From Pseudoxanthomonas sp. GM95 (GTDB taxonomy: Bacteria > Pseudomonadota > Gammaproteobacteria > Xanthomonadales > Xanthomonadaceae): a stretch of 64,000 nucleotides of DNA. The notes beneath the pieces are model-generated. The model saw nothing but the letters and a program-made list of their open reading frames with translations. It made no database searches and had not been told where the DNA came from. The DNA lies in assembly GCF_900109775.1 (NCBI RefSeq), contig NZ_FOAX01000001.1, forward strand, positions 62,001-126,000, given 5' to 3'. Position 1 is the first letter of the stretch; each line of letters starts with the position of its first letter. This document shows positions 8,254 through 59,979 of the stretch, piece by piece. The translations under genes and the position numbers were made by a program.

Positions 8254-8260
8254 TACTGCT

Positions 8261-8740
8261 TCAGTAACGCCAGCCCATCTTGCGATAGACCTTGGCCAGG
8301 ACCCAGATCGGGCCGATCAGCAGGTACACCAGGTCGGTGAGGAAACTCGGCTTGCGGCCTTCGATCCTGTGGCCGATGAACTGCGCGATCCACGCCAGCA
8401 CGAACACCGTCACCGCGCTCCACAGCAGCGCGTCCAGGCCGGCGCGCTGGGTCACCAGCCGACACACGCAGCCCATGAAGAAAAACACCACGAACATCCC
8501 CAGCCCGATCGAACGCGACAGCCGGTTGTAGAACGACCACGCGGCGAACATCGGCAGCACCGCCCACACGCCGCCGCGTAGCCAGTCCACCTGCACCGGG
8601 ATGCACCACAGCAGCGCGATCACCGACCACAGGATCGCCGGCACGGCGACCACGTGGATGGCCTGGTTGACGGGGTCGCGGTGGTCGCGCGAATAACTGG
8701 CAAACCAGTCGTCGATCGGCCGGGCGGCAGGCGCGTTCAT
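8261..8740 (-). CDS. Mpo1-like (DUF962) membrane protein
   Basis: 159-residue protein of the Mpo1/YGL010w family (formerly DUF962). It has four hydrophobic segments and the two conserved histidine regions: HRDPVNQAIHVV near residue 20 and QFIGHRIEGRKPS near residue 122. The yeast member is an Fe2+-dependent dioxygenase acting on 2-hydroxy fatty acids in the endoplasmic reticulum. Bacterial members have not been assigned a substrate to my knowledge, so an oxygenase role is only inferred. The start is well supported by GGAGGG four bases before ATG 8740. Confidence 0.8.
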   Translation of the reverse strand: MNAPAARPIDDWFASYSRDHRDPVNQAIHVVAVPAILWSVIALLWCIPVQVDWLRGGVWAVLPMFAAWSFYNRLSRSIGLGMFVVFFFMGCVCRLVTQRAGLDALLWSAVTVFVLAWIAQFIGHRIEGRKPSFLTDLVYLLIGPIWVLAKVYRKMGWRY

Positions 8741-8787
8741 CAATCCCTCCCGAGGATGCGTGCGCGATGGAGCAGGTCGTGTTGCTG

Positions 8788-8853
8788 GTGGAAGCCGCCT
8801 TGGCGGCGATGCGGCTTTAACTGAAAAGCCATCGCCACTGAAGTGACTCCCAC
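8788..8853. repeat. Pair of inverted GTGGxAGC-type palindromic repeats (REP-like)
   Basis: A unit starting GTGGAAGCC with internal symmetry GCCGCC/GGCGGC (8788-8811) faces an inverted unit ending GACTCCCAC (8830-8853). The pair lies in the 128-base gap between the Mpo1-like gene and purC. A second, related pair lies at 13829-13890, which supports a dispersed repeat family rather than chance. Confidence 0.6.
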
Positions 8854-8868
8854 GGGCACCGATGCCAC

Positions 8869-9795
8869 TCAGTCGACGGTGATGTCGGCCAGCTTCTGCA
8901 GGGCTTCGGCGTAGCGGGCGCGGGTGCGCTCGATCACTTCGGCCGGCAGCACCGGGCCGGGCGCGGTCTTGCCCCAGTCGGTGGTCTCCAGGTGGTCGCG
9001 CACGATCTGCTTGTCGTAGCTCGGCGGGCTGGTGCCGACCTGGTACTCGGCGGCCGGCCAGTAGCGCGAGGAATCCGGCGTCAGCATCTCGTCCATGATG
9101 TACAGGCGGCCGTCGGCGTCGGTACCGAACTCGAACTTGGTATCGGCCAGCAGGATGCCGCGCTGGGCCGCGTATTCGGCGGCGAACGCATAGATGCGCA
9201 GGGTCGCATCGCGCACGCGCTCGGCCAGGTCGCCACCGACAGCACGGACCATCGCGTCGAAGTCGATGTTCTCGTCGTGGTCGCCCACCGCCGCCTTGGT
9301 CGACGGGGTGAAGATCGGCTCGGGCAGCTTCTGCGCCTGCAGCAGGCCGTCGGGCAGTTCGATGCCGCTGACCTTGCCGGTGCGCTGGTAATCCTTCCAG
9401 CCGCTGCCGATCAGGTAGCCGCGGGCGATCGCCTCGACCGGCACCGGCTTGAGCTTCTTGGTGACCACCGCGCGCTTGGCGTACAGGGCCGGGTCCACGC
9501 CCTCGGGCAGGACGCTGGCCACGTCGATGCCGGTCAGGTGGTTGGGCATCAGGTGGGCGGTCTTCTCGAACCAGAAGTTCGAGATCTGGCACAGCATCTC
9601 GCCCTTGCCCGGGATCGGGTCGGGCAGCACCACGTCGAACGCACTCAGGCGGTCGGTGGCGACGATCAGCAGGTATTCGCCGGGCGGCGCATCGGCCGGC
9701 AGGCGCTCGCGCGGGATGTCGAAGACGTCGCGGACCTTGCCGCGGTGGCGCAGGTTCAGACCGGGAAGATCAGCTTGCAACAGCGTGGTGGGCAC
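8869..9795 (-). CDS. purC: Phosphoribosylaminoimidazole-succinocarboxamide synthase
   Basis: Purine biosynthesis enzyme (SAICAR synthetase): condenses CAIR with aspartate using ATP. 308 residues, the long bacterial form. Family blocks are visible in order: [13 protein letters not shown] (N-terminal ATP-binding loop), [45 protein letters not shown] and [12 protein letters not shown]. The frame is open further upstream without family similarity. Two GTG codons are close together (9801 and 9795); 9795 is chosen because AGGAG then lies five bases upstream, whereas it would overlap the other. A TACACT -10 box for this gene lies at 9882-9887 (minus). Confidence 0.93.
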
Positions 9796-39106: not shown

Positions 39107-40291
39107 ATGTCCGAACACACTCGCGGGAGCCAGGACGGCGACAGCACCCTGGCTCTGGCGACGCTCGCCATCCACGGCGGGCAGTCTCCCGATCCCAGCA
39201 CCGGGGCGGTGATGCCGCCGATCTATGCCACCTCGACCTACGCGCAGGCCAGCCCGGGCGAGCACACCGGCTTCGAATACAGCCGCACGCAGAACCCGAC
39301 CCGGTTCGCCTACGAGCGCTGCGTGGCCGCGCTGGAAGGCGGCAGCCGCGGGTTCGCCTTTGCCTCGGGCATGGCCGCGACCGCGACCGTGCTGGAGCTG
39401 CTGGACAGCGGCGACCACGTCATCGCGATGGATGACCTGTACGGCGGCAGCTATCGCCTGTTCGAGCGCGTGCGCAAGCGCAGCGCGGGGCTGGATTTCA
39501 GCTTCGTCGACCTGACCGATCCGGCGGCCTTCGAAGCGGCGATCACGCCGAAGACCAAAATGGTCTGGATCGAGACACCGACCAACCCGATGCTCAAGAT
39601 CGTGGACATCGCCGCGATCGCGACCATCGCCCGCAAACACGGCCTGCGCGTGGTGGTGGACAACACCTTCGCCTCGCCGATGCTGCAGCGCCCACTGGCG
39701 CTGGGCGCGGACATCGTCGTGCATTCGGCCACCAAGTACCTCAACGGTCACTCGGACATGGTCGGCGGCATCGCCGTGGTCGGCGCCGACACCGAACTGG
39801 CCGAACAGCTCGCCTTCCTGCAGAACTCCGCTGGCGCGGTGCAGGGCCCGTTCGACAGCTTCCTCGCCCTGCGTGGTCTGAAGACCCTGCACCTGCGCAT
39901 GAAAGCCCACTGCGACAACGCTCTGGCGCTGGCGCAATGGCTGGAGACACAAGATGCGGTATCAAACGTGATCTACCCCGGCCTGCCTTCGCACCCACAG
40001 CACGCCATCGCCGCGAAGCAGATGACCGGCTTCGGCGGGATTATCTCCCTCGAGCTCAAGGGCGGGGCCGCAGCAGCCAAGCAGTTTTGCGAGAAAACCC
40101 AACTCTTCACCCTCGCCGAGTCTCTCGGCGGTGTCGAAAGCCTAGTCAACGTCCCAGCACTAATGACCCATGCCTCCATTCCCGTTGACCGCCGTGCACG
40201 GTTGGGCATCAGTGATGGACTGGTGCGATTGAGTGTCGGCGTCGAGGCGCTCGCTGATCTGCAGTGGGACATTTGCGAGGCATTGCCTTGA
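39107..40291 (+). CDS. metB: Cystathionine gamma-synthase/gamma-lyase family PLP enzyme
   Basis: 394-residue Cys/Met metabolism enzyme of fold type I. PLP lysine K210 lies in HSATKYLNGHSD, as in the Xanthomonas enzyme; YSRTQNPTR and SSGMAAT-like ASGMAATATV provide the phosphate contacts; ETPTNPML and DNTFASP are canonical. Beside cbs it fits reverse transsulfuration (cystathionine to cysteine); synthase activity is also possible. This gene marks the left border of the LPS locus in xanthomonads. Over its last 70 codons the codon use departs from the rest (see findings). Its stop overlaps the wzm TTG start. Confidence 0.9.
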   Translation: MSEHTRGSQDGDSTLALATLAIHGGQSPDPSTGAVMPPIYATSTYAQASPGEHTGFEYSRTQNPTRFAYERCVAALEGGSRGFAFASGMAATATVLELLDSGDHVIAMDDLYGGSYRLFERVRKRSAGLDFSFVDLTDPAAFEAAITPKTKMVWIETPTNPMLKIVDIAAIATIARKHGLRVVVDNTFASPMLQRPLALGADIVVHSATKYLNGHSDMVGGIAVVGADTELAEQLAFLQNSAGAVQGPFDSFLALRGLKTLHLRMKAHCDNALALAQWLETQDAVSNVIYPGLPSHPQHAIAAKQMTGFGGIISLELKGGAAAAKQFCEKTQLFTLAESLGGVESLVNVPALMTHASIPVDRRARLGISDGLVRLSVGVEALADLQWDICEALP

Positions 40292-41127
40292 GCGCCGGGC
40301 AGCACATCTCGCTTTCCGATGCCAGGGAAGATAGGGGGGCGCTCGTGTTTTGGCGGCACCTGTCGAAAAGCTTGCGTAATCCAGAGTTCTGGGCGCTTTC
40401 CAGTTGGCTGGATATTTTGGTGAAGGCGCGTAAATCCCGCTTGGGCATCCTCTGGTTGATGACGCCGGCTTTGGTGTACGTGTTTGGCCTCGGTGCCTTT
40501 TTCGCCGGTATGGGCGGGAAGCCAATCCCCTTGTTCGCAGCGCATGTAGCGCTGGGATCCATTGTGTTTCGTACGCTCATGTCTACGGTCATGAGTAGTG
40601 CGGGTATCTTCCATTCCGGCGCATCGTTCATCATGGATGGGCGGACGCGATTAACCGACTATCTACTGCAATCCATCGCAAAGTCGTTTTTTGACCTCTG
40701 TATGTATTTGCCGATTACCTGTATTGCACTCTGGATATTTCCTGCGGTTGCTCTGAAAGGCCTTGCTTTCGCACCTGTGGCGCTCTTGCTGATCTATATC
40801 AATGCATTGTGGATCAGTGTGGTCTTTGGCTTGCTTGGGGCGCGTTTCCCCGATTTCGGGCAGCTTCTCAGCAACATCTCGATCTTTCTGTTTTTGCTCA
40901 CGCCCATCATCTGGTACCCGGATACCATGCCGGCTGAGAGTCTGCGCGGCCAGCTAATGCGAGCCAATCCGTTTTATCACTTCATCCAGATATTTCGTGC
41001 ACCAATCCTGGTGGAGCCGATTGAGCCTTTAACATGGTGGTATGTAGGAATTTCTTCCGTCATGGGGCTGGCTATCGCTACGCTCCTGTACCGGCGCTAT
41101 GCGCGCTTTGTGCCTTTGTGGATCTGA
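40288..41127 (+). CDS. wzm: O-antigen ABC transporter permease
   Basis: 279-residue ABC-2 type permease with six transmembrane helices (first near residue 54, last near 250). LRNPEFWALSSWLDILVKARKSRLGILW is the cytoplasmic N-terminal region of Wzm/TagG proteins, and NPFYHFIQIFRAPIL precedes the last helix. With Wzt it exports completed lipid-linked polysaccharide to the periplasm. TTG 40288 is chosen as start: GAGG (40277-40280) lies seven bases upstream and the codon overlaps the metB stop (TTGA). A GTG at 40264 would lack a ribosome site. Codon use is clearly less GC-rich than in metB. Confidence 0.9.
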   Translation: MSAGQHISLSDAREDRGALVFWRHLSKSLRNPEFWALSSWLDILVKARKSRLGILWLMTPALVYVFGLGAFFAGMGGKPIPLFAAHVALGSIVFRTLMSTVMSSAGIFHSGASFIMDGRTRLTDYLLQSIAKSFFDLCMYLPITCIALWIFPAVALKGLAFAPVALLLIYINALWISVVFGLLGARFPDFGQLLSNISIFLFLLTPIIWYPDTMPAESLRGQLMRANPFYHFIQIFRAPILVEPIEPLTWWYVGISSVMGLAIATLLYRRYARFVPLWI

Positions 41128-41131
41128 ATCC

Positions 41132-42277
41132 ATGAGCGCCCACATCCGCGTACGGAATCTTCAACTCGAAGTGCCTGCCTTCATGCAGCGGGACCGAGAT
41201 TCGACGGGCTGGCTTTCCACGTTCCTGGGCGCAGCCTTTGATCCTCCGAGGCGGCAGGTGGTTCGCCTGCTGGACAACGTTTCTTTTGATATCAGGGAAG
41301 GGGATCGCCTGGCAATTCTCGGGCGGAACGGTGCGGGAAAGAGCACGCTGCTGCGCGTGCTCAATGGGGTCTACCGTCCTACACGAGGCAGTCTGGAGGT
41401 TTCAGGCACCTGCCAAGCGCTGTTGAATCTATCGCTGGGTCTTAACAACGAGGCGACGGTGCGCGAAAACATTCTTCTGCGAGGGGTGGCGATGGGCCTT
41501 CCGTCCTCGTTCCTGCGCACGCAGATTGGCCCGATCCTGAGTTTCGCCGGTTTGGAGCAAAAGGCATCGCATCGACTCCGGACACTGTCGTCCGGGCAAC
41601 GAATGCGGCTGGGTTTTGCGATTTCTACGTCCGTCCAGCACGACATTATGCTGATGGACGAATGGGTAGGAGCCGGCGATCAGGAGTTCATGACCAAGGC
41701 AAAGGAGCGAATGCGCGATCGGGTTGGCGGAAGCAAGATCGTCGTGCTTGCAAGCCATAGCGTCGGCCTCCTGCGGGACATTTGCAACAAGGGCATCGTG
41801 CTCGAGCGTGGTCGCGTGCTTTTTGCTGGTGACATTACATCCGCGCTTCACCGATATCACACCTTGGTTGCCGATGCCCGTGAGCAGGTCGCTGCCGGCA
41901 GCGAGGAAGAAGAAGTCACCGCCCAGGTATACGGGACAATCGAAGCCATAGAGCACATTGGCGATGGTCGTTTCCTGGTCAAAGGCTGGATGGTGGATAC
42001 CGATGGCGGGGTGCCAGGCAGCTTGTCACTTGAAGTGCACGGGCATCGTCATCTTGCGGACACCTTCGAGCAGGTCAACCGTCGAGACGTAGCAAACCAC
42101 CTCGGGCTCATCAACAGCCGGTGCGGCTTCCACGCGGTCTTCACTGTCGCGGGAGCCAGTGGTCCTGCGGATCTTGGTGGCGACGTGAGAGTTCTTGGTG
42201 GGGTCGCGCCCGGCATTGGCGATGCTGCCCTGCGTTTGGCGAAGGTGGTTCTGCACGCAGTGGGACAAGAGGCTTGA
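41132..42277 (+). CDS. wzt: O-antigen ABC transporter ATPase with C-terminal recognition module
   Basis: 381 residues. ABC domain: Walker A GRNGAGKS (64-71), signature LSSGQ (152-156), Walker B IMLMDE (172-177), switch His H209; the N-terminal extension before Walker A and LLNLSLGLNNEATVRENI are typical of polysaccharide exporters. After residue 265 comes a separate module starting IEAIEHIGDGRFLVKGWMVDTDG, about 115 residues. In E. coli O8/O9a the Wzt C-terminal domain recognises the cap at the end of the finished chain. Here the module resembles ones in the neighbouring methyltransferase and glycosyltransferase genes rather than the known carbohydrate-binding Wzt domain, as far as I can judge. 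ATG follows the wzm stop by four bases. Confidence 0.9.
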   Translation: MSAHIRVRNLQLEVPAFMQRDRDSTGWLSTFLGAAFDPPRRQVVRLLDNVSFDIREGDRLAILGRNGAGKSTLLRVLNGVYRPTRGSLEVSGTCQALLNLSLGLNNEATVRENILLRGVAMGLPSSFLRTQIGPILSFAGLEQKASHRLRTLSSGQRMRLGFAISTSVQHDIMLMDEWVGAGDQEFMTKAKERMRDRVGGSKIVVLASHSVGLLRDICNKGIVLERGRVLFAGDITSALHRYHTLVADAREQVAAGSEEEEVTAQVYGTIEAIEHIGDGRFLVKGWMVDTDGGVPGSLSLEVHGHRHLADTFEQVNRRDVANHLGLINSRCGFHAVFTVAGASGPADLGGDVRVLGGVAPGIGDAALRLAKVVLHAVGQEA

Positions 42278-42332: not shown

Positions 42333-43697
42333 ATGGCGCAATACCAATCCTTCCCCGGTGCAGTGGGGGATTCACGGTCACTGGACAAGCTGAAGGCGCT
42401 CCACCTTCCGGTGCTCGCTGACAAATCCTTCTTGGATGTTGGCTGCAACGAAGGTTTCTTCTGTGGTTTTGCTGCTTTTCAGGGCGCTTCGCGAATCGTG
42501 GGGATAGATCGTTCGCAGTTGTTCGTCGAGCGTGCTGCAGCGAGGTTTCCTCAGGTGGATTTCTTCGCTCAGGGGTGGGACGAACTGCCGGACGGCCAGT
42601 TTGATGTGATCCTGTTGGCATCAGCGCTTCACTACGCGGATGACCAAGCTGCACTCATTCGTACGCTAGTAGGAAAGCTGACGGCCAACGGCGTATTAGT
42701 CCTCGAACTCGGTGTGACGCACAGTGCTGAGCCGATCTGGGAGGCCGTGGTACGCGGCATCGACCGTCGCTTGTTTCCCTCGATGCCGATGCTCAGGGAA
42801 GTGCTTGGCGACTACGCCTGGAAATGGATGGGGCCAAGTATCCGGCAGGACGGTGATCCGGTGGCCCGCCAGGTCATTCATGTTTCCAGGCGCCGTCCGC
42901 TGGCGTACTTGCTGATGCAGCCTCCTGGTTACGGGAAAAGCAGCGTGGCAGGCGGCTTATTTCCAAAGGCCGGCGTGCCCCTGATCTCAGGAGATGCAGA
43001 AGTATCTGCAGTAGCGCGCGGAGAATCTAGGGCATCGCCAGCCTTGGTCGAGGCTATTCGCAGGGACTTTTCGCCTTACAGCATCGACAAGGCGATTCAG
43101 CGGGTCTTTGCGGAACAACTGGGGCATGAGTTGATCGCGCTTTTGATGGCGCGCGCAGGTGATGGTGACGTGGCGATTGATGTCTATGTGCCGCACGAGC
43201 AGCATGAAGTCATGAGGGCGATCGTCGCCGATCACGGGCGAATCCCTGTTGTATTGGATTGGGGGCGCATCGGGGAGGCGCCGCTGATGGAGGAGGAGAT
43301 GGAGCGCCAGGCCAATGCCTACTATCTCGCGATGCTTCCTTCGGATCAGCCTGGTGCAGTAGCCATCGACTGGAAGCATGCAGGTGTGGTGGATGAGGTC
43401 TGGATCGAGCGAGGGCGCTTGATGCTACGTGGCTGGGCAGTGGGATCGGATGGGCGCCTGCCAGACGAGGTGAGCATTGAACTTGGCCGCAAGACCATCA
43501 AGGCAGATCGGCTGGAGCGGCAGCTGCGCCCGGACGTACAGCAGGCGCTCGGCTTGCCTCACGCGCTGGTCGGATATCGGTTAACCATCCCCATCACTGC
43601 AGATGTTGACCTGTCCGCTGTAGTTCGCAAGCTCAAAGTCAGTTTTGACGGTCAGGCCACCAACGCAAGCAACATTAAAGTGCGTGCATCACAGTGA
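42333..43697 (+). CDS. Methyltransferase, P-loop and GWAVD-module fusion protein
   Basis: 454 residues in three parts. Residues 30-185: class I SAM methyltransferase with motif I FLDVGCNEGFF (33-43), motif II GIDRS and motif IV FDVILLASALHY. Residues 190-335: a P-loop-like domain with PPGYGKSS (197-204), in which the first Gly of GxxxxGKS is replaced by Gln, then LISGD (217-221), resembling small-molecule kinases. Residues 345-454: a module with LRGWAVGSDGRLP also seen in Wzt and the large glycosyltransferase. A methyltransferase joined to a phosphotransferase beside wzm-wzt recalls WbdD, the chain-terminating enzyme of E. coli O8/O9a, though the kinase part is unrelated. A capping role is inference. 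Confidence 0.75.
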   Translation: MAQYQSFPGAVGDSRSLDKLKALHLPVLADKSFLDVGCNEGFFCGFAAFQGASRIVGIDRSQLFVERAAARFPQVDFFAQGWDELPDGQFDVILLASALHYADDQAALIRTLVGKLTANGVLVLELGVTHSAEPIWEAVVRGIDRRLFPSMPMLREVLGDYAWKWMGPSIRQDGDPVARQVIHVSRRRPLAYLLMQPPGYGKSSVAGGLFPKAGVPLISGDAEVSAVARGESRASPALVEAIRRDFSPYSIDKAIQRVFAEQLGHELIALLMARAGDGDVAIDVYVPHEQHEVMRAIVADHGRIPVVLDWGRIGEAPLMEEEMERQANAYYLAMLPSDQPGAVAIDWKHAGVVDEVWIERGRLMLRGWAVGSDGRLPDEVSIELGRKTIKADRLERQLRPDVQQALGLPHALVGYRLTIPITADVDLSAVVRKLKVSFDGQATNASNIKVRASQ

Positions 43698-45985
43698 TGC
43701 AGCGTGATGCTGCCGTGGCGCGACTCGACTTAAGCCCGCCGGAACTTGGCGGGTGTGAGCTATATCACTGGTCGCCGATGTCCCAACCGGCTTTGCCATT
43801 GCGCGCGCCTGCGCGCTGCCTTGAAATGAGGCCTGGCTGGTATCGCATCACAGCGCGAGCCGAAACGCGCAAAGGGGAGTGGATATCCACTGCACTGGAA
43901 TTGCTTTATCGGAATGGCGATCGTGTGCGTGTTCCGCTCATGGGCCCAGGTTTAGATGGGCGCATTGATGATGTCGTGCTCCTGCGGCACGACATGATGG
44001 AAATTTCGCTCTTTCCTTCGGAGGATCCGTTGGAATTTTCCATGGGAGAGGTACGGTGCCAGTTTCTGCCGTTGCCACGCAGGATCATTGCGATGCTTGC
44101 GCGTTTCCGTCACGAAAATGGCGAATGGGACCCGCGCGCCTCAGTCGCTGCAGGAGCGTCGCTGTTGCGTCATTGCGCATTGGGTCGGCCAAGAAAAGGG
44201 CTCCACGCGCTGTCCTATCGTTTCCAGGAGAGTCGGCGGCTTCGGACACGTGCGCGGACTTACGCCGATTGGGTTGCACGTTACGCGACGCCTCAACCTG
44301 CTGATCTCTTGGAATTTGCGGCGCAGGGACAGGCGCTGGCGGTCGAAGGTCCGTTGATTTCGTTGCTGGTGCCGACCTATCAGACGCCTGTCCGCTGGCT
44401 GCGTAAATGCCTGGAAAGCGTCATCGCCCAAGCTTACCCGCGTTGGGAGTTGTGCATTGCAGATGATGCGTCACCTGATCCCGGGATCAAGCGCGTTCTC
44501 GAGGAGTACGCGGCACGCGATCCACGCATCCGCTTCATCGTGCGGGCGCGAAATGGGCACATCTCGGAAGCCTCCAACACTGCATTGGTCATGGCGCAGG
44601 GTCAGTATGTGGCCCTGCTGGATCACGATGACGAGCTTGTGCCGCAAGCCTTGTTGCGAATGGTCCAACGACTGAAGGAACAGCCTGCGCTGCGGATGAT
44701 CTATTCGGATGAGGACAAGATCGACGCGTCAGGCCTGCGCTTTGATCCTTATTTCAAGCCGGACTGGAATCCTGATCTCCTGCTGTCACAGAATTATATT
44801 TGCCATTTCACCGTGATCGATGCCGACCTTGTTCGCGATGTGGGTGGCTTCAGAGTGGGCTTCGAGGGAAGCCAGGATCACGATCTCTTCCTGCGTTGTA
44901 CTCGGCGCCTGCAATCGAAGGAGATTGGCCATCTCGCGGAAATTTTGTACCACTGGCGTGCTATCCCAGGATCGACGGCGCTCGAGCGTGGCGCAAAGGA
45001 TTACGCGGCGGATGCTGGCGCACGCGCAGTACAGGATCACTTGGACCTCACGGCGGGAGGACAAGTGGAATCGCTCCTGCATGGTCACTATCGCGTGCGC
45101 AGGCCGCTTCCGGATTCGCCGCCCAAGGTGGCACTGATCATTCCAACGAGAGACCGCGTTGGACTGCTTAAGATGTGCGTCGAATCCGTTCTCCTGAAGA
45201 CGACGTATCCGAATTTCGAGATCATCATCGTGGATAACCAATCCACGTCTCCCGACGCATTGGAGTATCTCTCCCATATCGACGGCGACCCGAGGATCAG
45301 GGTCCTGCCTTATGACGCCCCTTTTAACTATTCCGCGATAAACAATTACGCTGTACGGGTCTGTGACGCCGACGTGGTGGCGCTGGTCAACAACGACATC
45401 GAAGTCATCACCCCTGATTGGCTTGAGGAGATGGTTGCCCACGCGTTGCGCCCCACCGTGGGCGCCGTTGGTGCGATGCTCTACTATCCGGGCGATACGA
45501 TCCAGCATGCGGGGGTCGTGCTGGGTGTATGGGGCGTGGCGAATCATTTCTATGCCGGCCAGCCCAAGGGATACCCGGGGCATGGAGGCCGCGCGCGCGT
45601 CGTTCAGAACCTGTCCGCGGTCACCGCAGCATGCCTGGTGATCCAGCGATCCCGTTTCCTAGAGGTCGGGGGGCTGGATGAGGCTAATCTTGCGGTGGCT
45701 TTCAACGACGTTGACTTCTGCCTGCGGTTGATGGGCGCTGGCTATGCCAATGTCTGGACGCCATTTGCCGAGCTCTACCACCATGAGTCCGCGTCCCGTG
45801 GCGCCGAGAATACGGATGCAAAACGCGCCCGTTTCGCAGGTGAAGTTGCTTACATGACCCATTGCTGGGCGGGCATCCTTCGGCAGGATCCTGCCTACAA
45901 TCCGAATCTCTCGCTAGAAGGCACCAACTGTGAACTGGCATTTCCGCCGAGAGGGTGGGATGTGCATGGAGCGATGCCAAGGTGA
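43697..45985 (+). CDS. Bifunctional glycosyltransferase with two GT2 domains
   Basis: 762 residues. The N-terminal 200 residues are of unknown type, strand-rich with RPGWYRITARAETRKGEW. GT2 domain 1 starts LISLLVPTYQTP (about 220) with catalytic DHDDE (310-314) and EGSQDHDLFLR as base region. GT2 domain 2 starts VALIIPTRDRV (about 478) with VNNDIE (565-570) and FNDVDFCLRL. Both resemble rhamnosyltransferase-like enzymes of O-antigen clusters (WsaF/RfbC type). Each domain probably adds one linkage of the repeat unit. ATG 43697 shares one base with the preceding stop (TGATG); a GTG at 43694 is the alternative. Confidence 0.85.
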   Translation: MQRDAAVARLDLSPPELGGCELYHWSPMSQPALPLRAPARCLEMRPGWYRITARAETRKGEWISTALELLYRNGDRVRVPLMGPGLDGRIDDVVLLRHDMMEISLFPSEDPLEFSMGEVRCQFLPLPRRIIAMLARFRHENGEWDPRASVAAGASLLRHCALGRPRKGLHALSYRFQESRRLRTRARTYADWVARYATPQPADLLEFAAQGQALAVEGPLISLLVPTYQTPVRWLRKCLESVIAQAYPRWELCIADDASPDPGIKRVLEEYAARDPRIRFIVRARNGHISEASNTALVMAQGQYVALLDHDDELVPQALLRMVQRLKEQPALRMIYSDEDKIDASGLRFDPYFKPDWNPDLLLSQNYICHFTVIDADLVRDVGGFRVGFEGSQDHDLFLRCTRRLQSKEIGHLAEILYHWRAIPGSTALERGAKDYAADAGARAVQDHLDLTAGGQVESLLHGHYRVRRPLPDSPPKVALIIPTRDRVGLLKMCVESVLLKTTYPNFEIIIVDNQSTSPDALEYLSHIDGDPRIRVLPYDAPFNYSAINNYAVRVCDADVVALVNNDIEVITPDWLEEMVAHALRPTVGAVGAMLYYPGDTIQHAGVVLGVWGVANHFYAGQPKGYPGHGGRARVVQNLSAVTAACLVIQRSRFLEVGGLDEANLAVAFNDVDFCLRLMGAGYANVWTPFAELYHHESASRGAENTDAKRARFAGEVAYMTHCWAGILRQDPAYNPNLSLEGTNCELAFPPRGWDVHGAMPR

Positions 45986-46066: not shown

Positions 46067-46702
46067 ATGGCGGTGCTGAATCAACAGGTTCCGAGCGGAT
46101 GCTTGACGGGGGCGGGGAGCCCTCCAGTCGAGTCGGTGGGGATGGAAATCCATCTTGCAGCGGTCAATGAGCTTGAGCGTCGATTGCGACAGGCGTATGC
46201 GGAATTCCATGAAATCGACCGTTTGAAAGAACGGATCTCTGCCATCGAAGCCGAGGGCGAATGCCTGAAGCAGGAGCTGGCGGGCTGCTATCGCGAGCTT
46301 GCAACGCTGACGCTCTTGCTGGCAGAGGCAGAGCAGGCCGCACCAGTGGCGACGAGTGTTGTCAAGGCGCCGCCTGTGCGTCTCTCGTTGGGACGCATCG
46401 TCAGATTCTTCAATCGATGCCGCGACCGTTGGCAGGCGAATCATGTGCGCGCACGCATCCAAGCTTCCGGCCTGTTCGATCCATCTTGGTATATCGCGAA
46501 GTATCCAGATGTTGCCGCGTCTGGGATCGATCCGCTAGAGCACTATCTGCAATTCGGTGCCGGGGAGGGGCGGGGAGTAGGGCCGAATTTCGACATGACG
46601 GCGTATCTGGCATTGAATCCGACAGCGCGGCTTGGTAATCCCATCCTGCATTACCTAGATGGATCTGCAGCGGCTAAGGAAGAGGCAACTCGGAATGGTT
46701 AA
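46067..46702 (+). CDS. Coiled-coil protein with YPDVA-type repeats
   Basis: 211 residues. Residues 26-90 form a heptad-patterned coiled coil (LAAVNELERRLRQAYAEF, LKERISAIEAEGECLKQEL). After a Pro/basic linker, residues 138-200 contain repeats of the form FDPSWYIAKYPDVAASG followed by PLEHYLQFGAGEGRG. The same repeat opens the next protein. No catalytic motif is visible, so it may be a scaffold or length-measuring partner of the polymerase complex (in E. coli O9a a coiled coil in WbdD sets chain length). A GGGGGTGAT ribosome site precedes ATG 46067. Its end overlaps the next gene by eight bases. Confidence 0.65.
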   Translation: MAVLNQQVPSGCLTGAGSPPVESVGMEIHLAAVNELERRLRQAYAEFHEIDRLKERISAIEAEGECLKQELAGCYRELATLTLLLAEAEQAAPVATSVVKAPPVRLSLGRIVRFFNRCRDRWQANHVRARIQASGLFDPSWYIAKYPDVAASGIDPLEHYLQFGAGEGRGVGPNFDMTAYLALNPTARLGNPILHYLDGSAAAKEEATRNG

Positions 46703-49700
46703 TGGAGTAGAACTTGCAATGCTTGAGCGCTTGATCGTCGAGTCTGGAATGTTCGATGCCGATTGGTATCGTGCTCGCTATCCGGATGTGGCGTTGATCG
46801 GTATGGAGCCGTTGCCGCATTTCGTCAGATTCGGCGCCCAGTTAGGGCGCAGCCCGGGACCAGACTTTGATCCTGGCTACTATGCGCAGAGCAACGCTGA
46901 TGTCGCGGCCGGTGGTTCGAGCCCGCTGTTGCATTACCTTCAATACGGGCGTCAGGAAGGTCGGCCCGGCAAAGCACCGCTCGTGGTCCAGGCCGCTGAA
47001 GAGGGCGTCCAGATTGCGGCGCTCGGAGCGCCAAGACTTTATGGTCATCTCGATCGTGCGACCCCCACCTTAATTGAAGGGTGGGCAGTAGACGAGGCAG
47101 CGCCTGGCGCGCCGGTCCGGTTGCAGCTTTTCGTGGACGGCGAAAAGGTCATGGACTTCGCCACGTCACGCGAGCGCCATGACGTCACCGCCAACAAGCT
47201 GCCCGGTGCGAATGCAGGTTTTTCGTTGCATTTGGCGCAGGGGATTCTCCGGACTGGCCAGAGCGTCGAGGTCCGCGAGGTTACCAGAGCTCGTAGCCTT
47301 GGAGAGGGGGTGAAGGTGATCGGCGCTTCGGCAGTCCGCAGCCGGCTGCCTGCGCCCACCTACCTAACCACACTTTCAACGGGGGCCATGCTTCCTGTCA
47401 CGGTAGTGGTGCCGGTCTACAACTCGCCCGATGCAGTAGCGGCATGCCTTGCTTCGCTCACTGAAAATCCGATGCCCGACTCCAGCGAAGTGCTGATAAT
47501 CGACGACGGCAGCACCGATCCACGCATTGCCGAACTCTTGCGGCGTTACGCGACGGTGCCCGGTTTCCGGCTGGAGATGAATCCGAGCAACATCGGCTAT
47601 ACGCGGACAGTGAACCGAGCGCTGGAGCTGGCCGCTGGCCGGGACGTGGTGCTGCTCAACAGCGATACCACAGTGACACCGCGCTGGCTGCACAATCTCA
47701 GGTACTGCGCATATTCACAGCCGGACATCGGGTCGGTGACAGCACTGTCGGACAACGCCGGCGCGTTTTCGGTTCCGGAGATTGGTGTTGCCAATTCTCC
47801 TCCGGCCTACTTGGATAGTGCCAGCACCGCAAAAGTCGTCACGCAGGCTGGTGAAGGCATTCCCATCGATGTCCCGACTGGGAACGGCTTCTGCCTTTAT
47901 CTGAGGCGCCATGCGCTCGATGTCGTTGGTGGTTTCGACGAAGCCAAGTATCCCCGGGGGTATGGCGAAGAAAACGACCTGTGCATGCGCCTGATGTATG
48001 CTGGTTGGCGCAATGTCATCTGTGACAAGGCTTATGTGTTCCACCTAAGGTCCCAGAGTTTCGGGGATATGAAGCGGGCACTGGTCGAGGACGGCGCGCG
48101 GCAGCTTGCCATCGACTATCCGGAATACCGCGCGCTGATCTCGCGATTCAACGACATCGAATTCGCGATGCGCCGCAATCGCCTGCGGAAGACCTTGCTG
48201 GCCGCTTCTTCGGCGCTGCCGAAGCCGAGGGTGCTGTTCGTCATCTCGACGACAACGGGAGGAACGCCTCAGACCAACTTGGACCTGATGCGCGCAGTGG
48301 CGGAAAGATACGAAGGTTTCCTGCTGCGATGCGACTCGCTGACCTTGACGCTTTCCAAGCTCGTGAACGGCAACCTGGTGACCTTGGAGACCGTCGCGCT
48401 GCATGCGCCGATCAGGGCCGTTCCGCACACATCTGATGAATACGACCGCCTGCTTCTGGACATTCTGTATCGCCACTCCATTGATGTGCTGCATATCAGG
48501 CACGTGGCTTGGCACAGCCTAGGGATCGCGTCGGCCGCCAAGGCGCTGCAGATCCCCGTGATCTTTTCCGTCCACGATTTCTACGCGCTTTGCCCATCCG
48601 TGAATCTGCTGGACACGGAGCATCGCTACGTGGGCACGTCGGAGGATGGAGCCAGATTGAATCCGCTATGGCCACAGCAGGTGGTGCCTGACGGATTCGT
48701 GCGCCGCTGGCGATTGATGATGGGGCGGTTCCTTGCCGACTGTTCGGCATTCGTGACCACCTCGCCGTCTGCCAAGCGGTTGTTTGGCGAGGTCTATCCG
48801 GAACATGTGGGCCGGATGCGGGTCATCCCGCACGGTCGGGATTTCGATCTGCTTGCGATGAATTCCACGACGCCCCAGCGTGGCAGGCCAATGAAGGTTC
48901 TGGTGCCGGGGAATATCTCGGTCAGCAAGGGGGCGCTCCTCCTGCGTGATGTCAGTGTGCTCGATGAGGAAGGACGAGTAGAACTGCATTTCCTCGGGCA
49001 TGCCATCCAGGAAGTCAAGCGCGTCGGTGTGCATCACGGCGCTTACAAGCGCGAAGAATTCCAGGCAAAGGTCGCTGCCATCGCGCCGAGCGTGGGCGTC
49101 GTGCTGTCGATCTGGCCCGAAACCTTCTGCCATACCCTGACCGAGATGTGGGCGGCCGGGATTCCCGTCCTGGGCTTGGATACGGGTGCAGTGGGCGATC
49201 GCATCCGTGCTACGGGCGGCGGCTGGCTCTTGCCGGCAGATGCGACGCCAAGCGATATCCTCCAGAAACTGGTGGAGCTGGCGAACAATCCGACGGAAGT
49301 CTTGGCGAGGCAGGAAGACCTCGCTCGCTGGCAGGCGGCCGAAGCTGTTGTCCATGACACGGCGCATATGGCGTCCAGCTACCGGCAGCTCTACAGCGAG
49401 TCGATGCTTGGTGGGAGGCGGCCTCTGCGTGTTGGCCTAGTCATGAAGTTGCGTGGCTTGAGGCATCGCCCCCCCACCGCCCATATCCGAGTGCTGAGGC
49501 CGATGCGGGCTGCGGCACAGACGGGACGGCTGGATCCACGGCCTATTTCGGTGGGTTCTCTCATCGCAGGTGCAGCCAGTGCGTTTGATGTCGTGGTCAT
49601 ACAGCGTGATGCAGTACCGCCCGCGCAGACAGAGCTGCTGTTGGACGCCCTGCGCATTGCTGGCGTGCCATGGATCTTCGAAATGGACGACATGCTCTGG

Positions 49701-50486
49701 GACTTGCCCAAGGATCACTTGGACCATGCGATTGACGATGTGGCGATCGCCAGCATGCGTGCAATCGCCCAAGGCGCCGCCTGCCTCACCACAAGTAGCG
49801 CGCCTTTGGCGGCGGCCCTATCCGAGACCAATGCACGAGTGGAAATCATCCCCAACGCACTGGACGAGACGCTATGGTGTAGCCCGCTGCCGGCAGGGCT
49901 CAGTGCTGAGGTTGCGGGGGCGCTTGGATTGAGTGCTGAACGGCGGTACATCCTTTATATGGGGTCCAATTCCCATGCGAAGGACCTCGAGATGATCGTG
50001 CCGGCGCTCGAGCGCGTGCTGGATCGGCATCCTGATGTGCAGATTCTGCAGATCGGGGGCGGGCACCCGCTTCCTTTTGCCAAGGAAGTGACCTGCCCGC
50101 CACGCTTTCCGACTTACCCGGAATTCGTGGTCTGGTTCAGGGCGCTCTGCAGCCATTGCACGCTGGCCCTGGCGCCACTGCGCGCTGATGCTTTCAACGA
50201 AGCCAAGTCGGACATCAAGTTCTTGGATTACAGCCTTGCTGGCGTTCCGGCAATCTTCAGCGACTTTGGTCCATATAGATGCACCGTCCATGACGGTTTC
50301 AGTGGGCTGCTACGTACGAATGATGTCGACTCGTGGCAAGAAGGAATCGAGGTCTTGCTTGATCGCCCTGATGTTGCTAGTCGCATCGCCGAGCAGGCCA
50401 GCAAGGCAGCCAGTGAGCGGACGCTCGCTAGGAGCGGTGTCGGTGAAGTGTGGGTGGATCTACTTGAGCGTATTGCAAGCCGGTGA
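46695..50486 (+). CDS. Trifunctional glycosyltransferase (GT2 plus two GT4-like domains)
   Basis: 1263 residues. Order: two YPDVA-type repeats (18-95), a GWAVD module (120-220; LIEGWAVDEAAPG), a GT2 domain (234-440; TVVVPVYNSPD, LIIDDGSTD, LLNSDT, YGEENDLCMR), a GT-B/GT4-like domain (512-890; VLFVISTTTGGTP, VIPHGRD, SIWPETFCHTLTEMWAAGIPVLG), then a second GT-B domain (910-1255; IIPNALD, YMGSNSHAKDLE, LAPLRADAFNEAKSDIKFLDYSLAGVPAI). Three transferases on one chain, beside a double GT2, suggest one machine assembling a repeat unit of about five linkages. ATG 46695 is chosen (overlapping the previous stop); 46659 is possible. Confidence 0.85.
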   Translation: MVNGVELAMLERLIVESGMFDADWYRARYPDVALIGMEPLPHFVRFGAQLGRSPGPDFDPGYYAQSNADVAAGGSSPLLHYLQYGRQEGRPGKAPLVVQAAEEGVQIAALGAPRLYGHLDRATPTLIEGWAVDEAAPGAPVRLQLFVDGEKVMDFATSRERHDVTANKLPGANAGFSLHLAQGILRTGQSVEVREVTRARSLGEGVKVIGASAVRSRLPAPTYLTTLSTGAMLPVTVVVPVYNSPDAVAACLASLTENPMPDSSEVLIIDDGSTDPRIAELLRRYATVPGFRLEMNPSNIGYTRTVNRALELAAGRDVVLLNSDTTVTPRWLHNLRYCAYSQPDIGSVTALSDNAGAFSVPEIGVANSPPAYLDSASTAKVVTQAGEGIPIDVPTGNGFCLYLRRHALDVVGGFDEAKYPRGYGEENDLCMRLMYAGWRNVICDKAYVFHLRSQSFGDMKRALVEDGARQLAIDYPEYRALISRFNDIEFAMRRNRLRKTLLAASSALPKPRVLFVISTTTGGTPQTNLDLMRAVAERYEGFLLRCDSLTLTLSKLVNGNLVTLETVALHAPIRAVPHTSDEYDRLLLDILYRHSIDVLHIRHVAWHSLGIASAAKALQIPVIFSVHDFYALCPSVNLLDTEHRYVGTSEDGARLNPLWPQQVVPDGFVRRWRLMMGRFLADCSAFVTTSPSAKRLFGEVYPEHVGRMRVIPHGRDFDLLAMNSTTPQRGRPMKVLVPGNISVSKGALLLRDVSVLDEEGRVELHFLGHAIQEVKRVGVHHGAYKREEFQAKVAAIAPSVGVVLSIWPETFCHTLTEMWAAGIPVLGLDTGAVGDRIRATGGGWLLPADATPSDILQKLVELANNPTEVLARQEDLARWQAAEAVVHDTAHMASSYRQLYSESMLGGRRPLRVGLVMKLRGLRHRPPTAHIRVLRPMRAAAQTGRLDPRPISVGSLIAGAASAFDVVVIQRDAVPPAQTELLLDALRIAGVPWIFEMDDMLWDLPKDHLDHAIDDVAIASMRAIAQGAACLTTSSAPLAAALSETNARVEIIPNALDETLWCSPLPAGLSAEVAGALGLSAERRYILYMGSNSHAKDLEMIVPALERVLDRHPDVQILQIGGGHPLPFAKEVTCPPRFPTYPEFVVWFRALCSHCTLALAPLRADAFNEAKSDIKFLDYSLAGVPAIFSDFGPYRCTVHDGFSGLLRTNDVDSWQEGIEVLLDRPDVASRIAEQASKAASERTLARSGVGEVWVDLLERIASR

Positions 50487-50534
50487 GACCAAGGCTTCGC
50501 ATATGCTTCGATTCGTGAAATTGGAGTGCTGGGC

Positions 50535-51782
50535 GTGATCCCTGTTGAACTTAAGCGGTGTGAGCGTACAGAACTTCCTGTTCGCGCGAGTCTGCTCGAA
50601 GGACTGGCGGAACCTAAAGATTTCAGGGTGGATATCCAATCAGTACGTATACTTAATCCTGATCTTGATCAGATACTCGGAAGCAGCTGGCGTCGGCCGA
50701 ATCGTGATCACTTCCTTGGTGCAAATTCACTGATGCTGCCCGAGCTGTGGAGTGAGGGCATTGAAATGCCCTCGCCTCTTCAGATTAGCGTAATGCATGA
50801 AGCCTGGGTATTTGGCGGCGTGATTACGCAAAGGGCTGAAGCCACTCACTCCCAAGGACAGGCGCTGCTGACGCGAAATGGTGGTGTCACTCAGGATTCG
50901 TTTGGAATCATGGATGGAAACGTCACGTGGGCGGAAAATATTCTTTCCTATGACGAGGCGTCGGGAGCTTGGGCGTATATAGGTCCTTCCGAGGCTACGA
51001 GGTTAAAGGGTGACTACTATCTCGTAGGTAATGTTCATCGGCATTTCGGTCATGTGATGCTTGAAGGTCTGAGCCGACTCTGGGCCATGCGCCAAGTATC
51101 ACAAGTTACTTCTGACTTGCGATTTTTAGTTTACGAATCTGATGTCAGGCCTTTCGCACTTGAACTTCTAAGGTTGGCCGGCGTGCCAGAGGATCGCATT
51201 GTGTCTGCTTCCCCGGCAACATCGGTCGAACGCCTATTTGTGCCCTCGACCGCAATGCGGACACATCGCTCGATTAGCCCGGAGATGGGGGAGGTTTGGG
51301 GGCGAATTTCGCTGAAGCAGGCTTCGGGGGGGTATAGAAGCGCCCGCCGCAAGGTCTATTTGTCGCGAAAGGCGATCGGGAATCGCCCCTTGGAGAATGA
51401 AGAGGCGCTGGAAGCTTTATTGCTTTCGCGTGGCTTCGAGATAAGGTGTTCCGAGACCATGACGATTCCTGAACAGATCCGCATGGCATCGGAATCTGAG
51501 ATCTTGGCGGGACCGGTAGGAAGCCAGATGTACCTGGCGGGTTTTCAACAGCCAGGCTCGTCTGTGCTGGTGCTGGCTCCCCGGAATTTTTACCTCAAAG
51601 ATGATCTGCTCCTTGCCGCAGTGCGTTTCCACCACCTCGATGTATGCTTTGGCTCGCCGCTCGATTTCAGAAAGGACAAGGCCAATCGTCGATGGAGTGT
51701 AGATCTCGTTGAGGTGGAGGCGAGGCTAGACGAACTGATAGTAAGCCGGGAGATGCCTGCCGATTTGGAACGTGACAAATAA
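50535..51782 (+). CDS. Glycosyltransferase family 61 (DUF563) protein
   Basis: 415 residues with the DUF563/GT61 pattern: GDYYLVGNVHRHFGHVMLEGLSRLW-type block (about 155-180; HFGHVMLE), then RRKVYLSRK, NEEALEALLLSRGFE, MTIPEQI and LAGPVGSQM near the C-terminus. GT61 enzymes transfer xylose, GlcNAc or other sugars; bacterial members occur in O-antigen and capsule loci. GTG 50535 is chosen because GGAG lies eight bases upstream; GTG 50526 is in frame too. Codon use is AT-richer than in the flanking chromosome. No terminator is seen before the 567-base gap that follows. Confidence 0.82.
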   Translation: MIPVELKRCERTELPVRASLLEGLAEPKDFRVDIQSVRILNPDLDQILGSSWRRPNRDHFLGANSLMLPELWSEGIEMPSPLQISVMHEAWVFGGVITQRAEATHSQGQALLTRNGGVTQDSFGIMDGNVTWAENILSYDEASGAWAYIGPSEATRLKGDYYLVGNVHRHFGHVMLEGLSRLWAMRQVSQVTSDLRFLVYESDVRPFALELLRLAGVPEDRIVSASPATSVERLFVPSTAMRTHRSISPEMGEVWGRISLKQASGGYRSARRKVYLSRKAIGNRPLENEEALEALLLSRGFEIRCSETMTIPEQIRMASESEILAGPVGSQMYLAGFQQPGSSVLVLAPRNFYLKDDLLLAAVRFHHLDVCFGSPLDFRKDKANRRWSVDLVEVEARLDELIVSREMPADLERDK

Positions 51783-53757: not shown

Positions 53758-54696
53758 TTAGATCGTCGCTTGCAGCTCCGGCAGGATCGCAAACAAATCC
53801 CCCACCAGCCCGATATCGGCGATCTCGAAGATCGGCGCGTCAGCGTCCTTGTTGATCGCCACAATCGTGCCGGCGTCCTTGATTCCGGTCAGGTGCTGGA
53901 TGGCGCCGGAGATGCCGATGGCCATGTACAGCTCGGGGGCGATGATCTTGCCGGTCTGGCCGACCTGGAGTTCGTTGGGCACGTAGCCAGCATCGACCGC
54001 GGCACGCGAAGCGCCGACGGCGGCACCGAGTTTGTCGGCCAGCTTGTAGATGATGTCGAAGTTTTCCTTCGAACCGACGCCGCGACCGCCGGAGACCACG
54101 CGCTTGGCGCTCTGCAGGTCGGGGCGGTCGGACTTGCCGGCGGCCAGACCGATGAAGCGGGTGTGCGTGGGCAGCGTAGCGTCGACGCTCGCCGCTTCGA
54201 TTGGCGCACTGCCGCCGGCGGGCGCTTCCGGCCAGGAGGCGGTGCGCACGGTGGCGACCACGGTCTGGCTGGCGTCGGGTTCGACGGTGATGATGGCGTT
54301 GCCCGCATAGATCGGGCGGGTGAAGGTGTGTTCGCCTTCGACCGTGATCAGGTCCGAGACCTGCGCCACGCCCAGCAGCGCGGCCACGCACGGCATCAGG
54401 TCCTTGCCGAAGGTGGTCGAGGGGCCGAATACATGCGTGTAGCCGGCCGCCAGCGCCACGATCTGCGGGGCCAGAACCTGGCCGATGGCGTGGGCGTTGG
54501 CGGCGTTGGCCACGGTCAGCACCTTGGTGACGCCGGTGATCTTGGCGGCAGCTTCGGCGACGGCGGCCGGATCGGCGGCCAGCACGACCACGTCGAGCGC
54601 TTCGGGCTTGAGTGCGGCGGCGGCGCTGACGGTCTTGGCGGTGGAAGCGTTGAGCGCGCCGTCCAGGTGTTCGGCGATGACGAGGACCTTGGCCAT
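53758..54696 (-). CDS. etfA: Electron transfer flavoprotein alpha subunit
   Basis: 312 residues; with EtfB carries electrons from acyl-CoA and other dehydrogenases to ETF-ubiquinone oxidoreductase. N-terminal [10 protein letters not shown]; the C-terminal FAD-binding domain has [35 protein letters not shown] and the terminal [28 protein letters not shown] block. ATG 54696 shares one base with the etfB stop (TAATG). This gene is the right border of the LPS locus in xanthomonads. Confidence 0.95.
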
Positions 54697-55442
54697 TACA
54701 GCAACCCCTTCTGCTTGAGTGCGGCCACCAGCTCGGCGGCGTCCTTGACCATCACGCCGCGGCTGCGCTTGGGCGGCGCGGCGTAGTGGGTGGTCTTGAG
54801 TTCGGCGCCGGCTTCCACGGCCAGGTCGGCGAACGCGATCGTCTCCAGCGGCTTGGACTTGGCCTTCATGATGTCGGGCAGCTTGATGAAGCGCGGCTCG
54901 TTCAGGCGCAGATCGGTGGTGATCACCGCCGGCAGGTCGATTTCCAGCGTTTCCAGGCCGGCGTCGACTTCGCGCGTCACCGTGGCCTTGCCGTCGGCGA
55001 TCTCGACCTTGGAGGCGAACGTCGCCTGCGGGCGGCCCCATAGCGTGGCCAGCATCTGGCCCGTCTGGCTGGCGTCGTCGTCGATGGCCTGCTTGCCCAG
55101 GATCACGATGTCCGGTTGCTCTTTCTCAATCAGCTTGAGCAGGGTGCGAGCGGCGGTCAGCGGCGACACCGGGCCGTCGGCGACCACGTGCAAAGCGCGG
55201 TTGGCGCCCATCGCCAGACCATTACGCAGGTGCGCGGCGGCATCGGCAGGAGCAATCGTGGCCACAACCACTTCAGTGGCGATGCCTTTATCGCGCAGGC
55301 GCAGGGCTTCTTCCAGCGCGATTTCATCGAAAGGATTGGGCGAGAGCTTCACGCCCTCGGTGACCACGCCGGAGTGGTCCGGCTTGACCTGGATGCGCAC
55401 GTTGTAGTCCACCACGCGCTTGTAGGCGACGAGAATCTTCAT
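54696..55442 (-). CDS. etfB: Electron transfer flavoprotein beta subunit
   Basis: 248 residues binding AMP structurally. MKILVAYKRVVDYNVRI, NPFDEIALEEALRL, GKQAIDDDASQTGQMLA and the recognition region DLRLNEPRFIKLPDIMKAKSKP are canonical. First gene of the etfB-etfA operon. A TAGAAT -10 box lies at 55514-55519 on the minus strand, in the region shared with divergent ugd. Confidence 0.95.
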   Translation of the reverse strand: MKILVAYKRVVDYNVRIQVKPDHSGVVTEGVKLSPNPFDEIALEEALRLRDKGIATEVVVATIAPADAAAHLRNGLAMGANRALHVVADGPVSPLTAARTLLKLIEKEQPDIVILGKQAIDDDASQTGQMLATLWGRPQATFASKVEIADGKATVTREVDAGLETLEIDLPAVITTDLRLNEPRFIKLPDIMKAKSKPLETIAFADLAVEAGAELKTTHYAAPPKRSRGVMVKDAAELVAALKQKGLL

Positions 55443-59902: not shown

Positions 59903-59979
59903 CCGCCAAAGCAAATGTGGCGCGATTTGTTTGCCTGTGTCGGATCAGGCAATGGCGCCCCAAATCAGGGGGCTTGGAA

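Follow-up and report, generated by a model that had tools for sequence, protein, structure and literature searches.

A methyltransferase joined to a P-loop kinase-like domain beside wzt, a candidate third type of methyl-phosphate chain terminator in a xanthomonad LPS locus

In an LPS locus of Pseudoxanthomonas sp. GM95, the gene that follows wzt encodes a single protein made of three parts: a methyltransferase, a P-loop kinase-like domain and a C-terminal module that shares its ancestry with the C-terminal domain of the neighboring Wzt. With moderate confidence, we read this protein as a bifunctional chain terminator for the O-polysaccharide exported by Wzm/Wzt, one that works like WbdD. Its architecture, the conservation of its likely catalytic residues, the homology of its C-terminal module and its linkage to Wzt proteins with a C-terminal domain are established by the comparisons reported here. 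For the enzyme's substrate, its chemistry, the order of its steps and its effect on export and chain length, we infer the following course. The P-loop domain, of a polynucleotide kinase (PNK)- or zeta-like kind, would use ATP to phosphorylate a hydroxyl of the non-reducing terminal sugar, and the N-terminal methyltransferase would then methylate this terminal phosphate with SAM. The resulting methyl-phosphate end would stop elongation, the C-terminal module of Wzt would read the mark before export, and the enzyme's own Wzt-homologous module would bind the chain.

Throughout, the window is the whole stretch of DNA that was analyzed, 64,000 nucleotides long. The gene is an intact ORF with an ATG start, and it is indeed the next gene after wzt, as the first-pass annotation had placed it, with a gap of 55 bp (Table 1). 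The locus runs in the order metB-like gene, wzm, wzt, the methyltransferase–P-loop gene, glycosyltransferases, a further methyltransferase and etfA. In Xanthomonas and Stenotrophomonas, the variable LPS locus sits between metB and etfA (PMC2238763, in part), and it is in this variable LPS locus of xanthomonads that our gene sits. A repeat of about 40 residues with a YPDV core is common to the 211-residue protein of the locus, to its glycosyltransferases (46659–50486) and to the tails of Desulfovibrio relatives of the enzyme; the Pfam scan of the window lists no family for it. Adjoining the LPS locus is a reprolysin-like metallopeptidase with FG-GAP repeats (59917–62310).

Table 1. Features of the locus in window coordinates, with the basis of each assignment
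Feature	Position	Strand	Basis
Methyltransferase + P-loop kinase-like + C-terminal module protein (454 aa)	42333..43697	+	ORF, Pfam, family alignment
Methyltransferase domain, residues 1-185	42333..42887	+	Pfam; 64-member alignment; alignment to WbdD
H100/Y101 (methyltransferase domain)	42630-42635	+	Align with WbdD H132/H133
R179 (methyltransferase domain)	42867-42869	+	Aligns with WbdD R203
P-loop kinase-like domain, residues about 184-340	42882..43352	+	Conservation, profile matches
Walker A QPPGYGKS, residues 196-203	42918..42941	+	GK[ST] in 62/62 members, first position variable
Asp221 of LISGD, candidate catalytic base	42993..42995	+	D 59, E 3 of 62
Asp283, candidate Walker B / Mg2+ residue	43179..43181	+	D 51, E 11 of 62
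C-terminal module, residues 344-450, homologous to Wzt C-terminal domain	43362..43682	+	Profile searches
wzt, ABC transporter ATPase (392 aa)	41099..42277	+	ABC_tran E 1.7e-21; NCBIfam Wzt/RfbE 7.4e-54, under the model's cut-off
Wzt C-terminal module, residues 272-368	41912..42202	+	Domain E 1.6e-19 with enzyme-module profile; alignment
wzm, ABC transporter permease	40264..41127	+	ABC2_membrane E 2.4e-9; NCBIfam Wzm/RfbD 1.1e-40, under the cut-off
Two-domain family 2 glycosyltransferase; start overlaps stop of the 42333-43697 gene	43694..45985	+	Pfam
211-aa protein, coiled-coil-like stretch (residues 30-63) and YPDV-type repeat	46067..46702	+	Home-made heptad scan
Multi-domain glycosyltransferase (GT2 and GT4 parts)	46659..50486	+	Pfam
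GT61-type glycosyltransferase	50526..51782	+	Pfam
metB-like cystathionine lyase, left border of the xanthomonad LPS locus	39107..40291	+	Name presumed by us from the sequence family
etfA, right border of the LPS locus	53758..55041	-	ETF_alpha E 8.1e-36

A profile search of the kind proposed at first pass, for this architecture beside wzt genes, returned a family. The profile (A2), which combines the window protein with those of four genus-mates and a viral relative, was run against one genome per species, with preselection by two peptide patterns from the methyltransferase. It returned at least 79 loci. In 60 of these (L044–L103), the methyltransferase and the P-loop core are fused; 19 show a methyltransferase match only. 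More members are likely, as preselection relied on those two patterns and covered no more than 80 loci. Together with the window protein and the viral contig L001, the 60 loci supply the 62 P-loop sequences compared below, and a fused core conserved this widely is more than chance. The family occurs in Xanthomonadaceae, Halomonas and its relatives, Accumulibacter, Zobellella/Oceanimonas, Desulfovibrio, a few alphaproteobacteria and assorted metagenome bins. An order-wide sample of 398 genomes, with five candidates scored per genome, gave a match at E ≤ 1e-12 in 16 genomes, full length in nine. Within Xanthomonadaceae, wzm-wzt lies directly upstream of the enzyme in 16 of the 17 fetched loci, as it does in the window; the exception, L045, has its wzt about 12.5 kb away on the same contig.

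Viral contigs carry parts of the same architecture. On the viral contig L001 (1123–2043), the fused methyltransferase and P-loop lie beside a Mu F-like head gene. On a second viral contig, L002 (4995–6229), a methyltransferase gene of this kind is followed immediately by a separate P-loop gene, both after a glycosyltransferase; the P-loop profile matches the latter gene over 34 residues only, at E 7e-8 among the 17 ORFs searched. We count the side-by-side placement of the two activities on L002 in support of the terminator reading. In a phage collection, all 12 matching records match the methyltransferase part only, and among plasmids none of 383 records spans 80% of the query, the best 20 of the 383 matching residues 1–124 only.

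The methyltransferase assignment made at first pass is well founded. Methyltransf_11 matches residues 34–124 at E 6.6e-12 (Pfam), and a 64-member profile of this domain matches WbdD of Escherichia coli HS at E 3.5e-12. In that alignment, H100 and Y101 fall on WbdD H132 and H133, and R179 falls on R203. R179 is Arg in all 64 members and H100 is His in 63, whereas residue 101 is Tyr in every one, so that the phosphate-residue set of WbdD is kept at R203 and H132 and changed to Tyr at H133. The two kept residues support the terminator reading; the Tyr counts against it. According to PMC3482155 (in part), R203, H132 and H133 of WbdD are essential, confer the use of phosphate and are without equivalent in the O8 sugar methyltransferase; two further methyltransferases have His or Tyr at the place of the His pair. 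R203 is therefore the only telling residue, because His/Tyr pairs also occur elsewhere (PMC3482155, in part). Among PDB sequences, the methyltransferase part has 175 matches at E ≤ 0.001, including WbdD (1.7e-9) and, over a stretch of 60 residues, a human 7SK methyl-phosphate capping enzyme (1.3e-10), and general methyltransferases outscore both.

These residues bear on another scheme, in which the methyltransferase alone would cap the chain, with an O-methyl group on a sugar as in E. coli O8, and the P-loop domain would be an ATPase for regulation, assembly or recruitment. Such a division of labor would fit the greater variability of the P-loop domain, whose mean column identity is 30% against 47% for the methyltransferase (64-member alignment), and the absence of the first Walker A Gly from 46 of 62 members. 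It fits poorly with the invariance of R179, whose WbdD counterpart R203 is absent from the O8 enzyme (PMC3482155, in part), and with a natural variant, in genome G466, that keeps the P-loop without a recognizable SAM motif. We consider this scheme quite unlikely.

The two P-loop motifs named at first pass are both present, as QPPGYGKSS at residues 196–204 and LISGD at residues 217–221, and the reported replacement of the first P-loop Gly by Gln is real. Across the 62 members, that position is Gln 24 times, Gly 16 times, Glu and Asp 8 times each and something else in the remaining 6. G201 and K202, by contrast, never change, and at residue 203 only S or T occurs. Because the position varies in the family while GK[ST] is kept throughout, the Gln reads as a family trait and not as decay, and we set aside the idea of a dead site. 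PNK/zeta-like kinases have a Walker A of the form GxxxxGK[ST], an acidic residue after the second strand and a further acidic residue downstream. Both corresponding acidic positions, 221 and 283, are acidic in all 62 members, and D221 is the candidate counterpart of the catalytic base of these kinases; the kinase-type residues are part of the support for a terminator.

Profile matches for this domain are mostly weak. Among the best 25 of 88 Pfam families at E ≤ 1, AAA_33 is the commonest match (42 of the 62 members), ahead of AAA_17 (24), Zeta_toxin (19) and CPT (6), and many members also match other AAA-type families. The window's own domain matches only AAA_33, at E 0.077, which we count against the terminator reading. 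Among the best 60 of 487 PDB sequence matches at E ≤ 1, zeta toxin 1gvn matches the P-loop profile at E 2e-5; above it stand a chain of the multi-domain adenylate kinase 9 and one annotated as a cilia protein, both scores being sums of several weak stretches, and the rest are mostly general AAA proteins. Taken with the kinase-type acidic residues, these weak matches suggest that the domain most resembles PNK/zeta-type kinases. The first-pass proposal of a different kinase fold is supported in that the domain bears no relation to the kinase of WbdD and conserves kinase-type residues; its likeness to PNK and zeta kinases draws on the acidic residues and weak matches.

We know of no PNK/AAA_33, zeta-toxin or CPT kinase that acts on polysaccharide ends. 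Zeta toxins phosphorylate UDP-GlcNAc, and the profile relatives of our domain include zeta toxin and chloramphenicol phosphotransferase-like kinases; the P-loop domain might thus phosphorylate a nucleotide sugar or another small molecule, the modified sugar then being added as a cap. The module that the enzyme shares with Wzt points instead to action on the polymer, and we regard a small-molecule substrate as very unlikely.

That module had been described at first pass as like the Wzt C-terminus, and the likeness turns out to be homology, with a profile-profile E of 1.4e-28. Within the window, a module profile built without any Wzt picks out Wzt at E 8e-20, and no further ORF of at least 80 residues reaches E ≤ 1e-3. 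We rejected for the window the notion that the module is a general glycosyltransferase add-on, as the profile matches only Wzt and the enzyme there; beyond the window, it also matches one ORF on L045 (7e-9) and, on L094, a glycosyltransferase (4e-8). The domain is of a different kind from that of E. coli. The window Wzt has no Pfam Wzt_C match at E ≤ 1 (E. coli Wzt as control, 2.9e-25), sequence similarity between the window-type and E. coli Wzt C-terminal domains was not found, and the enzyme's module meets only chance-level matches among PDB sequences (best E 0.41). Of the suggestion that the locus follows the E. coli logic, the presence of a C-terminal domain on Wzt holds, but the domain is not of the E. 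coli type.

Six relatives from beyond Xanthomonadaceae have this type of module at E ≤ 1e-10 (L060, L062, L067, L069, L081 and L090), and three more match it weakly. Fifteen loci bear a different C-terminal module of about 135 residues, and the Halomonas-type module compares with the xanthomonad type at E 0.04–0.05. Judged by eye, the tail is a short YPDV-type repeat at seven Desulfovibrio-type loci and is missing at others. In these comparisons, the methyltransferase and P-loop core stays constant, and the tail is exchangeable. In the Accumulibacter locus L063, the module runs on in a separate short ORF (8001–9128, then 9157–9486), which is either a frameshift or a real split. We also compared parts of Wzt and the enzyme by distance-matrix tests on 18 pairs. 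The two C-terminal modules do not co-vary (partial Mantel −0.05, p 0.62), a result that counts against the terminator reading; the P-loop against the Wzt C-terminal domain gives 0.30 (p 0.023), which is not significant after correction for five tests, and the other three pairings give p 0.12–0.35.

The presence of the enzyme goes with the kind of Wzt. We scanned 247 Xanthomonadaceae genomes for Wzt at E ≤ 1e-60, scoring seven candidates per genome, and found one in 53. The Wzt match reaches residue 303 or beyond in 30 of these and ends at residues 256–273 in 23; when 11 of the 23 were checked, the protein ended 2–13 residues past the match in all 11. The enzyme is present in 17 of the 30 genomes whose Wzt has the C-terminal domain and in none of the 23 whose Wzt lacks it (Fisher 3.9e-6). 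Behind this count, the enzyme profile finds a match at E ≤ 1e-8 in 23 of the 53 genomes; six of them (G156, G318, G354, G476, G493 and G507) have no Wzt C-terminal domain, match over a short methyltransferase stretch and nothing more (E 2e-11 or weaker), and are scored as lacking the enzyme. Fifteen of the 17 enzymes are full length, one is a fragment on another contig (G465) and one has a divergent methyltransferase (G466); without these two, the comparison is 15 of 30 against 0 of 23 (p 2.9e-5). The split recurs in all four genera with both kinds of Wzt, where the numbers of genomes with C-terminal domain and enzyme, domain only, enzyme only and neither are 4/1/0/2, 3/0/0/2, 3/0/0/2 and 3/0/0/4 (stratified probability 4e-5). 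Both this linkage and the gene order, which is that of E. coli O9, support the terminator reading. Because wzt and the enzyme adjoin and move together, the association shows a cassette and not by itself a mechanism, and joint transfer alone would also yield it.

Thirteen of the 30 Wzt proteins with a C-terminal domain occur without such an enzyme, which we count against the terminator reading. The two closest of them are 57% (G506) and 50% (G541) identical, and in both genomes a sulfotransferase-domain protein takes the enzyme's place after wzt (L154:2622–5207 and L155:2565–4511), with Sulfotransfer_3 matches of 2e-7 and 1.3e-8, both over the cut-off; these proteins also hold a stretch like the window's YPDV-repeat proteins. 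The remaining 11 are 39–45% identical and are followed in six cases by a glycosyltransferase- or polymerase-type protein (L156, L161, L162, L163 weakly, L165 and L166); in the other five (L157, L158, L159, L160 and L164), the protein that follows has no convincing Pfam match. In G466, the gene after wzt (L167:2334–3620) keeps the P-loop and the C-terminal module, has no recognizable SAM motif and has no Pfam match at E ≤ 0.01. We count this variant in favor of a terminator. The sulfotransferase and kinase-only variants may be alternative caps, the former possibly a sulfate cap.

Beyond Xanthomonadaceae, the settings are more varied. We scanned 44 genomes, 43 from outside the family and that of L045, for export genes. 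Twenty have KpsC/KpsS-type genes (PF05159). In 11 of these, the distance to the enzyme is at most 20 kb, where by our own estimate random placement would give about 0.8 genomes; in the other nine, the genes and the enzyme are on separate contigs. At least 11 of the 44 have an ABC-2 permease (PF01061) no more than 35 kb from the enzyme, and three, one of them L045, have a Wzm like that of the window at up to 20 kb. We rejected a Wzx setting as the rule: PF01943, the only such family scanned, lies within 20 kb in two genomes, both Desulfovibrio, several contigs being short. Two Desulfovibrio relatives with YPDV-repeat tails have other company, L087 (7917–9164) lying near EF-G and DNA polymerase I genes and L089 (7803–9188) near aldo-keto reductase, dehydrogenase and SMP-30-like genes; the six neighbors scanned at these loci are housekeeping or metabolic and not glycan genes. 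Genomes G445 and G448 each have more than one match.

Overall, the enzyme tends to accompany ABC-exported glycans, capsules included. Haemophilus influenzae b, a KpsC/S-type capsule setting, is described as exporting by an ABC transporter without a terminating residue (PMC11231755, in part). Because the enzyme is often near KpsC/S genes outside Xanthomonadaceae and near a Wzm of the window's kind in only three of the 44 genomes, the reading of a cap by the Wzt C-terminal domain cannot be general across the family. The first-pass picture of a terminator next to wzt fits the Xanthomonadaceae loci; the KpsC/S loci and L087 and L089 are other settings, and these count against the terminator reading. 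They would also fit an enzyme that phosphorylated and methylated sugars along or beside the chain, as side-group decoration, instead of the terminal residue, and did not stop polymerization: KpsC/S-type capsules can go unterminated, two Desulfovibrio copies sit among non-glycan genes, and the enzyme itself has no coiled coil. Side decoration would leave unexpected the strict co-occurrence with C-domain Wzt in Xanthomonadaceae, and we judge it unlikely.

The coiled coil deserves separate mention under the terminator reading, since it has been called characteristic of terminators (PMC11231755, in part). By a home-made heptad score, the enzyme has none (0.53 against 0.43 ± 0.16 for shuffled sequence; WbdD as control, 1.19), and this too counts against termination. 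The 211-residue protein encoded downstream scores 0.93 (shuffled, 0.44 ± 0.16) and is a possible separate ruler acting in trans. In 5 of 17 related loci, the next ORF downstream of the enzyme scores above 0.95, and in L045 the ORF next upstream does; this threshold carries no shuffle control, and the window's 211-residue protein just misses it. Structurally, the lack of a coiled coil in the enzyme itself is what most sets it apart from known terminators.

More tentatively, at a little short of an even chance, we see a third, independently assembled class of methyl-phosphate capping enzyme. In it, a P-loop kinase of the PNK/zeta kind would replace the protein-kinase fold, and a new chain-reading module would be common to enzyme and exporter. 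The slot after wzt would be a swappable cap cassette, filled by a methyltransferase-kinase, a kinase that has lost its methyltransferase or a sulfotransferase, and the same core would serve capsule clusters and phages. If true, three different kinases have been recruited to one and the same capping task, and a P-loop kinase would act on a polysaccharide end. The fused core could then serve as a sequence marker for terminated, ABC-exported glycans, the modules would form a new family of exporter-attached chain readers, and the sulfotransferase neighbors would predict a sulfate-type cap. Whether the exporter reads the cap would also become testable, by exchanging cassettes between close relatives.

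One of the closest known parallels is WbdD of E. coli O9/O9a (Klebsiella O3). Our comparison used a gene of E. coli HS that is annotated only as a class I methyltransferase; we name it WbdD because it lies beside wbdA, next to wzt, and encodes methyltransferase and APH/Pkinase domains with the expected residues. Like WbdD, our protein fuses a methyltransferase to a kinase-type domain, a putative one here, retains the R203 and H132 equivalents, and follows wzm and wzt in the E. coli O9 order, with a Wzt that carries a C-terminal domain. Unlike WbdD, whose kinase is a match to APH/Pkinase (protein-kinase/APH type), it has a P-loop domain: APH/Pkinase is absent among the protein's seven Pfam matches (E ≤ 1) and among the best 25 of 88 Pfam families for the P-loop members. 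A coiled coil is built into WbdD (also PMC3482155, in part) and is lacking in ours; the H133 position is Tyr here, and the Wzt C-terminal domain is Wzt_C in E. coli and not in the window. As the kinase type and the coiled coil differ, we do not claim membership of the WbdD family. Compared with Wzt_C domains, the window's module likewise sits after the ATPase and its expected role is alike, whereas it lacks similarity to the E. coli domain and a Pfam match, and the enzyme's module has no significant PDB sequence match. In all terminated examples described, a carbohydrate-binding module on the transporter reads the chain end (PMC11231755, in part).

With PNK/AAA_33, zeta-toxin and CPT kinases, the P-loop domain shares GK[ST], the acid after the second strand and the later acid, along with mostly weak profile matches; unlike them, its first Walker A Gly is variable (Gly in 16 of 62). 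Among the matches listed, no open-access paper title, preprints aside, names a terminator that pairs a methyltransferase with a P-loop kinase. Another close precedent is ORF6 of Klebsiella pneumoniae O7, published in 2024, which joins a methyltransferase, an AmiN-like kinase shown to be active and a predicted carbohydrate-binding module, Ig-like and called by its authors the first in a terminator (PMC11231755, in part). Our protein resembles it in uniting a methyltransferase, a second type of kinase and a predicted carbohydrate-binding module in one protein; by its description, ORF6 is set apart by its AmiN-like kinase, a coiled coil and fused GT2 modules, and its product is a methyl-phosphate end (PMC11231755, in part). 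The first-pass proposal of a new type of terminator needs toning down: the kinase-like domain does differ in type from the kinase of WbdD, but ours would not be the first alternative to it. Judged from its sequence, the protein probably brings a third type of kinase to methyl-phosphate termination, following those of WbdD and O7 ORF6.
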